A stretch of DNA of 64,000 bases. Origin: Stagnihabitans tardus. Its GTDB lineage: Bacteria; Pseudomonadota; Alphaproteobacteria; Rhodobacterales; Rhodobacteraceae. Below, one piece after another: positions 483-55,930 of the stretch. Numbering within the stretch: position 1 is the stretch's first letter; each line of letters begins with the position of its first letter. The notes beneath the pieces were generated by a model. The model saw nothing but the letters and a program-made list of their open reading frames with translations, was not told where the DNA came from and ran no database searches. Position numbers and translations under genes: made by a program. The stretch spans positions 1 to 64,000 of the forward strand of contig NZ_JAABNR010000011.1 in NCBI RefSeq assembly GCF_009925085.1, written 5' to 3'.

Positions 483-863
483 TTACCCCTCCACCTCCGG
501 ATGCCACCACCTCGGCCTCCCGCCCTTGTAGGAGTGGCTCTGCGGTTTCAGCGCCACCAGGTGGGGCTTGTCGAAGGCCCCGGTCAAAAGCGCCACCACG
601 GGGGCGTCGTCCAGGGCTCCGAGGGAACTGCCGCATTGGGGGCAGAAGGCGCGGGAGGAGCGGTCGGAGGAGCGCCAGGCCGAGGGGCGGCCTCCGGGGC
701 CGGTCCAGGTCACGGAATCGGAGGGGAATTCGACCCAAGAGGCGGTCAAGGACCCGGTGTGGCGCTGGCACATGCGGCAGGAACAGGTGTGGGGGAAGCC
801 GGGCTCTCCCTTGGTCTCGAAGCGGATATGGCCGCAGAGGCAGCCGCCAGTCAGATTGGGCAT
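483..863 (-). CDS. GFA-family (CENP-V/GFA) zinc protein
   Basis: A 126-residue protein of the glutathione-dependent formaldehyde-activating enzyme (GFA/CENP-V) fold. The zinc-ligand pattern is complete: C8-x-C10 (GGCLCG), C27-x-C29-x2-C32 (HTCSCRMCQ) and C74-x2-C77 (FCPQCGSSL). The family contains few proven enzymes, and many members are annotated only as GFA family, so a role in formaldehyde or thiol-adduct handling is inference. The start at 863 is chosen because GGGAGG lies 5-10 bases upstream and the sequence begins at the conserved LTGGCLCG; a longer frame back to 968 lacks this. It is divergent from a demethylase-type flavoenzyme, a reaction type that releases formaldehyde, which makes a functional link plausible. 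Confidence 0.85.
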   Translation of the reverse strand: MPNLTGGCLCGHIRFETKGEPGFPHTCSCRMCQRHTGSLTASWVEFPSDSVTWTGPGGRPSAWRSSDRSSRAFCPQCGSSLGALDDAPVVALLTGAFDKPHLVALKPQSHSYKGGRPRWWHPEVEG

Positions 864-942
864 CGGTATCCTCCCTTTTCTTGCTGAAAAGATCGGGGGC
901 GGGGGCGAGGAATTCAAGCCGGGGCCTGGGTCGACAGAAAAC

Positions 943-958
943 TTGACACATGTGTCAA
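943..958. promoter_or_regulatory. Perfect 16-bp palindrome in divergent promoter region
   Basis: TTGACACATGTGTCAA is exactly self-complementary and lies between the divergent GFA-family gene (start 863) and the flavoenzyme gene (start 992). TTGACA at each end also resembles a -35 element on both strands, so a dimeric repressor bound here could control both promoters. No regulator gene is adjacent, so the cognate protein is unknown. Confidence 0.6.
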
Positions 959-991
959 TTCCTCGCATCCTCCCCGCAAACGGAGGCTCTC

Positions 992-3013
992 ATGTCGAAC
1001 GATCCCCTTCTGCAGCCCTATCAGCTGAAGCACCTGACCCTGCGCAACCGCATCATGACGACCAGCCATGAGCCGGCCTATCCCGATGACGGGATGCCCA
1101 AGGACCGGTATCGGCTCTACCACCTCGAGCGCGCCAAGGCGGGGGTGGCCATGGTCATGACGGCGGGGTCGGCGGCGGTGTCGAAGGACTCGCCCCCGGT
1201 GTTCAACAACGTGCTGGCCTATAAGGACGAGGTTGTCCCGTGGATGCGCCGCATCGCCGATGACTGCCACGAGGCGGGGGCGGCGGTGATGATCCAGCTC
1301 ACCCACCTGGGGCGGCGGACGCGCTGGGACAAGGGGGATTGGCTGCCGGTTCTGGGCGCCTCGCATAGCCGCGAGCCCTCGCACCGGGCCTTTCCGAAGC
1401 GGATCGAGGATTGGGATATCACCCGCGTCATCAAGGACTTCGCCGATGCCTGCGAGCGGATGAAGGAAGCCGGGCTCGATGGGGTCGAGTTCGAATGCTA
1501 TGGGCATTTGCTCGATCAGTTCATGTCGCCCTTCACCAATGACCTGGAGGCGCCCTGGGGCGGCTCCTTGGAGAACCGGGCGCGGTTTGCGCTGGAGGTG
1601 TTGCAGGCCTGCCGCGACAGGGTGGGGCCGAACTTCCTCTTGGGCATGCGCTATACGGCCGATGAGGTCGAGGGCGGCATCACGGCGGAGGAGGGGATCG
1701 CGATTGGCAAGCTCTTCCGCGACTCTGGCAATGTCGATTTCCTGAACATCATCCGGGGGCGCATCCACACCGATCCGGCGATGACCGATGTCATTCCGAT
1801 CCATGGCATGCGCTCGGCGCCGCATCTGGATTTCGCGGGGCGGATGAAGGCCGAGGTGGGGATGCCGACCTTCCATGCCTCGCGCATCCCGGATGTGGCC
1901 ACGGCGCGGCATGCGGTGGCCTCCGGTCAGCTCGACATGGTCGGGATGACGCGCGCCCATATGGCCGATCCCCATATCGTGCAGAAGATCGTCGAGGGGC
2001 GCGAACACGACATCCGTCCTTGCGTCGGCGCGACCTATTGCCTGGACCGCATCTACCAGGGCGGCATGGCGCTTTGCATCCACAACCCCGCCACGGGCCG
2101 CGAGGCGGTGGAGCATCATGTCGTCCCGAAAGCCTCCACGATCAAACATGTCGTGGTGGTGGGCGCCGGGCCCGGGGGCCTCGAGGCCGCGCGGGTGGCG
2201 GCGGAGCGCGGGCATAAGGTCACCGTGCTGGAGGCCGCGGACCAGCCCGGCGGCCAGGTGCGGCTGATCGCCCAGACCAAGCGCCGGGCGGAGTTCATGG
2301 GGATCATCGACTGGCGCATGGCGCAATGCGCCTCCATGGGGGTCGAGTTCCGCTTCAACACCTGGGCCGAGGTCTCGGACGTGACGGCGCTGGCGCCGGA
2401 CGTGGTGATCGTGGCGACGGGGGGCATGGCGCAGAAGGATATCCTGAGCTTTGGCAATGACTTGACGGTCAGCGCCTGGGATATCCTCTCGGGCGATGTG
2501 AAACCGGGGCAAAACGTGCTGCTTTACGACGATGCGGGGGACCATACCGCGTTGCAGACCGCGCAGAAGCTGGCCGAGGCGGGCGCCAAGGTCGAGATCA
2601 TGACCCCGGACCGGACCTTTGCCCCCGATGTGATGGCGATGAACCTCGTGCCCTATATGCGGGCGATCCAGGGCCTGGACGTGACCTTTACCGTGACTTA
2701 CCGCCTGACCGGGGTCGCGCGCGAGGGCAACCTGATCACCGCGACCGTGGACAGCGACTATGCCAAGCTGGGCATCACGCGGCAGTTCGATCAAGTGGTT
2801 GTCAACCACGGCACCCTTCCCCTGGACGATCTGTATTTCGCGCTGAAGCCGCTTTCGACCAACAAGGGCGCGGTGGATTACGAGGCCCTGATCGCCCATC
2901 GCCCGCAGCCCGAGGCCCCGGGCTTCCAGCTTTTCCGCATCGGCGATTCGGTCGAGGCCCGCAACATCCATGCCGCGATCTATGACGCGCTGCGCCTGGT
3001 TTCGGCGGTTTGA
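992..3013 (+). CDS. NADH:flavin oxidoreductase, DgcA/TMADH-like N-demethylase type
   Basis: A 673-residue three-part flavoenzyme: an Old-Yellow-Enzyme TIM barrel (about 1-340, FMN), an Fe-S loop, then a dinucleotide-binding domain with VVVGAGPGGLEAARVAAERG near residue 390. This layout and length fit trimethylamine dehydrogenase, 2,4-dienoyl-CoA reductase and the dimethylglycine/N-methylproline demethylases (DgcA, HpbA, Stc2 types). The loop CVGATYC followed by GGMALC keeps three of the four usual cluster cysteines (344, 350, 362); residue 347 is Ala where TMADH has Cys. The start at 992 follows CGGAGG with good spacing. The substrate cannot be read from sequence; a methylated amine or betaine is the best guess, supported by the divergent GFA-family gene. 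A fatty-acid dienoyl-CoA reductase is the main alternative. Confidence 0.85.
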   Translation: MSNDPLLQPYQLKHLTLRNRIMTTSHEPAYPDDGMPKDRYRLYHLERAKAGVAMVMTAGSAAVSKDSPPVFNNVLAYKDEVVPWMRRIADDCHEAGAAVMIQLTHLGRRTRWDKGDWLPVLGASHSREPSHRAFPKRIEDWDITRVIKDFADACERMKEAGLDGVEFECYGHLLDQFMSPFTNDLEAPWGGSLENRARFALEVLQACRDRVGPNFLLGMRYTADEVEGGITAEEGIAIGKLFRDSGNVDFLNIIRGRIHTDPAMTDVIPIHGMRSAPHLDFAGRMKAEVGMPTFHASRIPDVATARHAVASGQLDMVGMTRAHMADPHIVQKIVEGREHDIRPCVGATYCLDRIYQGGMALCIHNPATGREAVEHHVVPKASTIKHVVVVGAGPGGLEAARVAAERGHKVTVLEAADQPGGQVRLIAQTKRRAEFMGIIDWRMAQCASMGVEFRFNTWAEVSDVTALAPDVVIVATGGMAQKDILSFGNDLTVSAWDILSGDVKPGQNVLLYDDAGDHTALQTAQKLAEAGAKVEIMTPDRTFAPDVMAMNLVPYMRAIQGLDVTFTVTYRLTGVAREGNLITATVDSDYAKLGITRQFDQVVVNHGTLPLDDLYFALKPLSTNKGAVDYEALIAHRPQPEAPGFQLFRIGDSVEARNIHAAIYDALRLVSAV

Positions 3014-4136: not shown

Positions 4137-4964
4137 ATGGCCGGCAATGGGAATGCCGCGCCCATCATCATCAAACGAAAGAAAGTTGTCGGCGGCGGCG
4201 GACACCACGGGGGTGCGTGGAAAGTCGCTTATGCGGACTTCGTGACGGCCATGATGGCCTTCTTTCTGTTGATGTGGTTGTTGGGCGCTACGACGGAAAA
4301 GCAACGCAAGGGCATCGCGGATTACTTCAATCCGACGATTCCGATCAACCGCGTCTCGGGCGGCGGAGATGGCGCCTTTGGCGGCGATTCCATCTTTTCC
4401 GATGAGAGTTTCGCCTTCAACGGTTCGGGGCAGGCCGCCTCGACCCAGGGTCCCGACACCAAGGTCGGCGGCGACGATGGCGGGTCGAACCAGGACAAGG
4501 AGGAAATCTCCAAGCTGCAAAGCGCGCTTTCCGGCCATGGCGGCGAAAGCGCCCAGATGAAGAGCATGCTGTCCCATGTCGTGACCCGGGTCACGGACGA
4601 GGGGCTGGTGGTCGAGCTCTTCGACACCGAGGAAGCGCCCCTCTTCGACGCCGACAGCGCGGCACCGACGCCCCTGGCGATGGACCTGGCCAAGATGATC
4701 GCCGAGGTCTTCCAGGCCTCGAAGAACCGCATCGCGATCGAGGCCCATGTGAAGGCCTATCCGGTGATGATGGTCAAGAACCCGTCCTGGAGCCTGTCGA
4801 CCGACCGCGCCCAGGTGATGCGCCAGCTGATGGAGGTGGCGGGCACCGACAAGGAAAGGATTGCCCGGGTCGTGGGCCATTCCGACCGCAAGCCCGCGAC
4901 CTCGGATCCCACGGCGCTGCGCAACAATCGGGTCGAGATCATCCTCTTGCGGAAGAACAGGTAA
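4137..4964 (+). CDS. motB: Flagellar motor stator protein MotB
   Basis: A 275-residue inner-membrane stator component that anchors the proton-driven MotAB complex to peptidoglycan. A short basic N-terminus (IIIKRKK, 10-16) precedes one membrane helix at about 31-50. D34 in AYADF is the proton-binding aspartate of the family. The C-terminal half (about 150-270) is the OmpA-like peptidoglycan-binding domain, ending VGHSDRKPATSDPTALRNNR. A GTG six bases earlier (4131) is an alternative start; the ribosome site is weak for both. motA is not beside it. It leads the flgE-flgK-flgL-flgI run with an 87-bp gap to flgE. Confidence 0.93.
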   Translation: MAGNGNAAPIIIKRKKVVGGGGHHGGAWKVAYADFVTAMMAFFLLMWLLGATTEKQRKGIADYFNPTIPINRVSGGGDGAFGGDSIFSDESFAFNGSGQAASTQGPDTKVGGDDGGSNQDKEEISKLQSALSGHGGESAQMKSMLSHVVTRVTDEGLVVELFDTEEAPLFDADSAAPTPLAMDLAKMIAEVFQASKNRIAIEAHVKAYPVMMVKNPSWSLSTDRAQVMRQLMEVAGTDKERIARVVGHSDRKPATSDPTALRNNRVEIILLRKNR

Positions 4965-20940: not shown

Positions 20941-20963
20941 CCCGGGGTATACCCCGGGCTACG
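20941..20963 (-). repeat. Intergenic palindrome, family B, copy 1
   Basis: CCCGGGGTATACCCCGGG (20941-20958) plus flanking CTACG. It is the inverted partner of the copy at 21012-21034 and begins one base after the pyrD stop codon. Confidence 0.8.
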
Positions 20964-21011: not shown

Positions 21012-21034
21012 CGTAGCCCGGGGTATACCCCGGG
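21012..21034 (+). repeat. Intergenic palindrome, family B, copy 2
   Basis: CGTAG plus the same 18-bp core (21017-21034). With copy 1 it forms an inverted pair separated by about 48 bp, placed between the convergent pyrD and epmA genes. It ends two bases before the epmA stop codon. Confidence 0.8.
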
Positions 21035-21036
21035 CC

Positions 21037-55870: not shown

Positions 55871-55893
55871 CGTAGCCCGGGGTATACCCCGGG
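55871..55893 (+). repeat. Intergenic palindrome, family B, copy 3
   Basis: CGTAG plus CCCGGGGTATACCCCGGG (55876-55893), identical to copy 2 at 21012-21034. Confidence 0.8.
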
Positions 55894-55906: not shown

Positions 55907-55930
55907 CCCCGGGGTATACCCCGGGCTAAG
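55907..55930 (-). repeat. Intergenic palindrome, family B, copy 4
   Basis: The core CCCGGGGTATACCCCGGG (55908-55925) followed by CTAAG, the inverted partner of copy 3 separated by 14 bp. Confidence 0.8.

Follow-up and report, generated by a model that had tools for sequence, protein, structure and literature searches.

A palindromic site shared by the promoters of two flavoenzyme genes of Stagnihabitans tardus is a predicted TetR-family operator

The locus described here lies near the beginning of the window, the 64,000-nucleotide stretch of Stagnihabitans tardus DNA that was analysed, which belongs to contig C11 of a 4.59-Mb genome assembled in 114 contigs. Positions 943-958 of the plus strand read TTGACACATGTGTCAA, a sequence that is exactly self-complementary and carries TTGACA at each end, just as the initial annotation had described it. 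On the basis of genome comparison we annotate this stretch (943-958, without strand) as the predicted palindromic operator of a TetR-family regulator. It is flanked by a gene of the GFA family (483-863, minus strand; PF04828, E = 6e-20) and by the gene of a 673-residue flavoenzyme, here called A (992-3013, plus strand; PF00724, Oxidored_FMN, E = 1e-50), an OYE/TMADH-type NADH:flavin oxidoreductase that by similarity would be an HpbA/StcD-like N-demethylase. The ATG of A follows 33 bp past the end of the palindrome. The left TTGACA (943-948, plus strand) is followed after 17 bp by a -10-like hexamer, CATCCT (966-971, plus strand; three of six positions match TATAAT), and then by GGAGG (982-986, plus strand), the probable ribosome-binding site of A. 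The N-terminal (5') end of an IS4/5 transposase gene, cut by the contig start (1-159, minus strand; PF13340, E = 1.7e-9), is given as context only.

When the 64-kb window was scanned with up to three mismatches, the 16-mer was the single match, where 0.07 would be expected. Palindromy alone is nevertheless weak evidence, because the window contains seven perfect palindromes of at least 16 bp compared with a mean of 2.5 in 60 first-order Markov simulations, and it is conservation that decides whether 943-958 is an operator. Four of the other six palindromes are copies of one G+C-rich repeat. This REP-like palindrome, CCCGGGGTATACCCCGGG, is found at 20941-20958, 21016-21035, 55876-55893 and 55908-55925, occurs there in inverted pairs with flanks resembling GCGTAGC and GCTACGC, and has 95 exact copies in the genome. 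Further perfect palindromes of 14-16 bp are located at 4580, 8915, 12945, 13866, 20751, 21475, 29193, 55360 and 57032.

A search for further genomic copies, which had been proposed together with the initial annotation, yielded one perfect copy: besides its site in the window, the exact 16-mer is found once more, on contig C10; one or two mismatches gave no copy and three gave six. On contig C10, 30 bp separate the palindrome from the ATG of a second flavoenzyme gene, B, and the palindrome overlaps the stop codon of an APH-family gene upstream. A and B are paralogues of one family with proteins that are 34% identical, and sequence comparison revealed 21 bases common to both promoters (AAAACTTGACACATGTGTCAA; 938-958, plus strand, in the window). 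A mobile repeat was considered and rejected, as there are only two copies in the genome, and a recent gene duplication that took the promoter with it is unlikely given that the two proteins share only 34% of their residues. The exact 16-mer is absent from the other 294 genomes of the family sample (295 searched including our own), and TCGACACATGTGTCGA is absent from the 198 family genomes searched for it, our own included. Taken together with the orthologue data, this indicates that the motif is degenerate between genomes.

Within the genus, an orthologue of A is present in all 16 genomes (82-93% in the 15 others), and the motif precedes it in four, namely our own, G299, G304 and G296. The same four genomes also carry the motif before B (TTGACACCTATGTCAA in G304, TTGACACGTGTGTCGA in G296 and TTGACACAGGTGTCTA in G299), where the B proteins of the three relatives are 76-88% identical to ours. 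A close orthologue of the TetR-family regulator (54-56% to the query) was detected in exactly these four genomes, a coincidence of 1 in 1820 by simple counting that ignores relatedness. Next in the genus comes a 37-40% relative in G298, whose alignment falls into two stretches; the few fainter hits (E from 1e-5 to 4e-4) represent other TetR genes. The remaining 12 genomes keep A and have neither the motif nor a close TetR (in G295, 37 bp of upstream sequence were available); the sequence upstream of their A genes is different, mostly with a GTCGCA-type block. Likewise, five B orthologues from TetR-less genomes have no motif upstream (best scores at most 1.0; one with 75 bp of upstream sequence). 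A stringent search with TNGACACNTGTGTCNA returned seven sites in three of the 16 genomes, all of them before A, B or mttB, including one before the MttB methyltransferase gene of G296; two more, weaker sites were found in G304 at A and B. In G296, TetR and A are transcribed divergently and flank the motif. With the loose pattern TTGACAN4TGTCAA and one mismatch, at least 6-20 matches per genome were obtained in the genus versus at least 0-6 for a reversed control; a recurring class among them, TTGACATACATGTCGA, was dropped since it lay inside coding sequence in both loci looked at. As a separate observation, TetR-less orthologues of A (L112-L145) often have a recurring block, GTCGC followed by A or T, some 61 to 76 bp before the ATG, which is possibly the site of another regulator.

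The pairing of motif and regulator extends to the family, where the motif takes the general form AACTCGACACATGTGTCGAGTT and a TetR match at E of 1e-35 or lower was present in 75 of 159 sampled genomes, our own included. We examined the best 80 of 382 sequence stretches encoding A, as well as loci centred on TetR (the best-scoring 30 matches, of which one was our own genome, leaving 29); these two samples and the genus set may have genomes in common. In the 80 loci, motif and TetR occurred together in 36, the motif alone in one, TetR alone in four and neither in 39 (p = 9e-17). Because the position weight matrix was hand-made from 14 sites that mostly belong to the loci counted afterwards, we also counted the core GACAN4TGTC as an unfitted test: the exact core gave 29, 0, 11 and 40 loci in the same order (p = 9e-13), and one mismatch gave 34, 5, 6 and 35 (p = 5e-11). 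The single locus with the motif only is L186, with 291 bp upstream of A. Of the 40 loci with TetR, four have no motif upstream of A; one of these, L176, has it between TetR and mttB, which A follows. Across 864,794 positions of the A loci, all 30 matches scoring at least 20 lay before A or in the gap between TetR and mttB. On a quick tree of 81 proteins, motif and TetR each change 18 times; after correction for the tree, 9-11 of 11 independent contrasts on supported branches pointed in the same direction and none in the opposite one (p about 0.002). The pair test comprised 77 rows and left out the window row as well as L113, L123 and L186, which have little upstream sequence. From the side of the regulator, the motif (score of at least 14) was found just upstream of TetR in 22 of the 29 loci and not in the other seven, and 21 of these 22 have mttB (11) or A (10) across the operator or close by. 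The counts do not as such show the lack of conservation in relatives that had been named as refuting the initial annotation: the motif is present in 4 of 16 genus members and in 36 or 37 of 80 loci, largely together with TetR, and is missing in the rest. The co-occurrence with TetR supports the repressor or regulator site that had been suggested, and genome comparison argues for a regulon in which this operator is paired with the regulator.

In S. tardus itself the TetR-family gene, recognized by similarity to the TetR of relatives, is located on contig C2 (C2:403961-404572, minus strand) and ends 0.4 kb from the end of this contig, so that it does not adjoin the palindrome in the assembly, and its place beside A rests on synteny and on insertion sequence ends. 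As to synteny, Flavimaricola marinus (L162), Alexandriicola marinus (L159) and a Rhodospirillales genome (L176) carry the motif in the gap that separates mttB from a divergent TetR-family gene, and the gene order in F. marinus is A, TetR, mttB, B. The start positions of divergent genes were judged by eye. As to the ends, contig C2 closes, beyond the TetR gene (L192:2456-2557), with the 3' part of a transposase gene, a weak DDE-type match (PF13586, E = 0.0007, below the curated cut-off) on the same strand as the transposase end with which contig C11 begins. Most simply, TetR and A would be neighbours, between which an insertion sequence and the GFA gene have been inserted; this link is tentative, because the same end of the insertion sequence is also found on contig C27. 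The protein aligns over its full length with the TetR of F. marinus (55% identical), and the TetR_N helix-turn-helix domain is recognized in three relatives (PF00440, E = 1e-11 to 7e-11). A predicted model of the TetR of Rhodobacter sp. KR11, which is 91% identical to ours, is an all-helical two-domain structure of ten helices (pLDDT 94.7), and the named matches listed in a Foldseek search with this model are TetR-type regulators, with a modest best E of 8e-5.

Regarding the promoter, the palindrome is probably operator and -35 element at once on the side of the flavoenzyme. In 11 overlap-type sites (six at A, four at B and one at mttB), TTGACA on the gene side is invariant (11/11), and the mirror TTGACA is present in 3/11 (p = 0.001). 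All ten flavoenzyme promoters of this type continue with a -10-like hexamer, after 17 bp in nine and 16 bp in one; these hexamers are weak (two to four of six matches to TATAAT), and no -10 stands out at the mttB site of G296. The invariant gene-side TTGACA and the -10-like hexamer 16-17 bp further on indicate, as far as a comparison of genomes can, that the operator overlaps the -35. When 28 promoters of A (27 loci scoring at least 20 and the window) were ordered by the distance between operator and ATG, irrespective of their letters, the split was the same: the nearest six, with the centre within 58 bp, all had TTGACA, and the 22 farther operators had TCGACA on the gene side in 20 cases and TTGACA in none. 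Inspected by eye, many of these 22 promoters have a TTGA-type -35 of their own a little past the operator, and in other genera the operator is placed upstream of the -35, a position also used by activators. Both this arrangement in sister genera and the 22 of 28 promoters without gene-side TTGACA would suit a TetR protein that binds the same palindrome as an activator or dual regulator. We consider this unlikely, since the operator overlaps TTGACA, which is the position of a repressor, in the lineage of the window and in a second operator class (e.g., L140, L177 and Paracoccus), and since most TetR proteins characterized so far are repressors. The same 22 sites, which keep the palindrome without the gene-side TTGACA, also speak against a strong constitutive promoter whose -35 would be palindromic by chance, the association with the regulator being a by-product of gene neighbourhood. 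The expectation of about 2.5 palindromes of at least 16 bp per 64 kb is in favour of such a coincidence, which nonetheless appears most improbable in view of the paired copy at the unlinked gene B and of conserved sites at B and mttB genes distant from A.

The initial annotation had further proposed a second -35 facing the GFA gene and a tight co-repression of the GFA and flavoenzyme genes by one operator. The divergent GFA gene and the presence of TTGACA on both strands in our genome are what this bidirectional arrangement has on its side. On the GFA-facing strand, however, the place of a -10 17 bp away (935-930) reads GTCGAC, which is nothing like a -10 hexamer. Neither the other 15 genus genomes (20 loci, flanks of 0.04 to about 10 kb) nor the 80 orthologous loci (flanks of up to 5 kb, some shorter) showed a GFA gene next to A, and the transposase end lies on the far side of the GFA gene. 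With the mirror TTGACA missing from most sites and no GFA gene detected in these flanks of the orthologues, co-repression is not supported; we regard the bidirectional element as very unlikely and the GFA gene as a local neighbour that is probably not part of the regulon. Of the initial proposal, the operator, the -35 on the flavoenzyme side, the demethylase-type enzyme (by similarity) and the further copy are supported, and the GFA-facing -35 and the co-repression of GFA are not.

The assignment of A as a demethylase-type flavoenzyme is a prediction by similarity. Among solved structures its sequence is nearest to 6qkg (NCR), 2,4-dienoyl-CoA reductase, trimethylamine dehydrogenase (TMADH) and histamine dehydrogenase. 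It differs from TMADH (1djn) in the four-cysteine Fe-S motif, where CIGCNVC...C corresponds to CVGATYC...C in A, so that the second cysteine is replaced by alanine and A lacks the full set of four. The flavinylated Cys30 of TMADH aligns with a glutamate in A. The protein is about 70% identical over 99-100% of its length to plasmid-borne Paracoccus proteins annotated, not from experiment, as N-methyl-L-proline N-demethylase HpbA, and we predict an HpbA/StcD-like N-demethylase. StcD of Sinorhizobium meliloti is called an N-methylproline demethylase of stachydrine catabolism (PMC12239276). In P. marcusii the hpbA locus has a divergent TetR/AcrR gene and is followed by a betaine/proline/choline-type ABC transporter, and the Pseudosulfitobacter locus has a divergent TetR gene and is followed by a gene of the proline racemase family; in contrast to these loci, the downstream neighbours of A in the window look flagellar, as judged by eye from the open reading frames. 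The neighbours in P. marcusii and Pseudosulfitobacter point to proline betaine or N-methylproline as the likely ligand, by analogy, with glycine betaine as the rival. The TetR proteins of the two loci are 52% and 47% identical to ours, and their operators, TTGACACAGGTGAACATTT and TTGACATATCTGAACATTT, form the second class containing TTGACA. TetR proteins of this class differ in the helix-turn-helix, e.g., by LKIARTSFYWHF or LKLSRTSFYWFF for LGLSRTSFYWHF. Upstream of A, the second class (L140, L141, L152, L177, L178, L181, L187, L232 and L233) has TTGAC adjoining GAACATTT or GTACATTT, and a 43-bp inverted repeat is present in L140, L141, L152, L177, L178 and L181.

Taken together, the palindrome is most likely the operator of a TetR-family repressor that controls A and B and shares letters with the promoter. 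A TetR dimer bound to the palindrome would cover its left half-site, which doubles as the -35 hexamer TTGACA, and so deny RNA polymerase access to the flavoenzyme promoter. Release may come with a methylated amine, the likeliest candidates being proline betaine, N-methylproline or another betaine-derived amine. In relatives the same regulator and operator are also found at the gene of an MttB-type methyltransferase; in S. tardus no stringent operator was found at any mttB gene, three of the five mttB-like loci having also been scanned closely. That a TetR regulon has here a conserved operator which overlaps a -35 is well supported by these comparisons; it would be an ordinary kind of bacterial gene switch, in which two features deserve further attention, the displacement of the operator from one genus to another and the association of mttB with hpbA. 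It connects a TetR group for which the literature consulted describes no role with the catabolism of methylated amines, provides a predicted operator, and offers natural promoters in which one operator is found upstream of the -35 in some and within it in others. As methylated osmolytes are plentiful carbon and nitrogen sources in water, marine and soil microbiology has an interest in how their use is switched on. More speculatively, and with clearly less confidence, one TetR protein and one operator might run a betaine N-demethylation regulon of the Rhodobacteraceae that unites MttB-type corrinoid methyltransferases and HpbA-type flavoenzymes, the operator having moved relative to the promoter from upstream of the -35 in most genera to inside the -35 in the Pseudorhodobacter lineage by a change from TCGACA to TTGACA. 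If true, this would represent a natural series on how the position of an operator sets regulatory logic, and it would point to a cobalamin-dependent proline betaine route in aerobic bacteria that replaces the Rieske enzyme.

Several parts of this predicted regulon resemble known systems. The mttB found at the TetR operator in relatives belongs to PF06253 (E = 4e-208 and 3e-212), as do the MttB/MtgB betaine methyltransferases of marine Rhodobacterales, and in Ruegeria pomeroyi two PF06253 proteins increase when the cells grow on N-osmolytes (PMC12478193). The main text of that paper contains neither TetR nor "repress", its five matches to "tetr" being tetrahydrofolate, and no regulator of this regulon is described among the matches listed in a literature search that lay mostly outside subscription journals. 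Among TetR-family regulators, RutR recognizes the box TTGACCAnnTGGTCAA and NemR the box TAGACCnnnnGGTCTA, from both of which the operator core found here, GACACATGTGTC, differs. With solved TetR proteins, our regulator shares sequence similarity mainly in its N-terminal part. The TetR_N helix-turn-helix and the all-helical fold are nevertheless the same as in the divergent repressor-operator modules of TetR and QacR, and the palindromic operator between a divergent regulator gene and a catabolic gene in relatives, as well as its overlap with the promoter, is likewise in keeping with modules of the TetR family.
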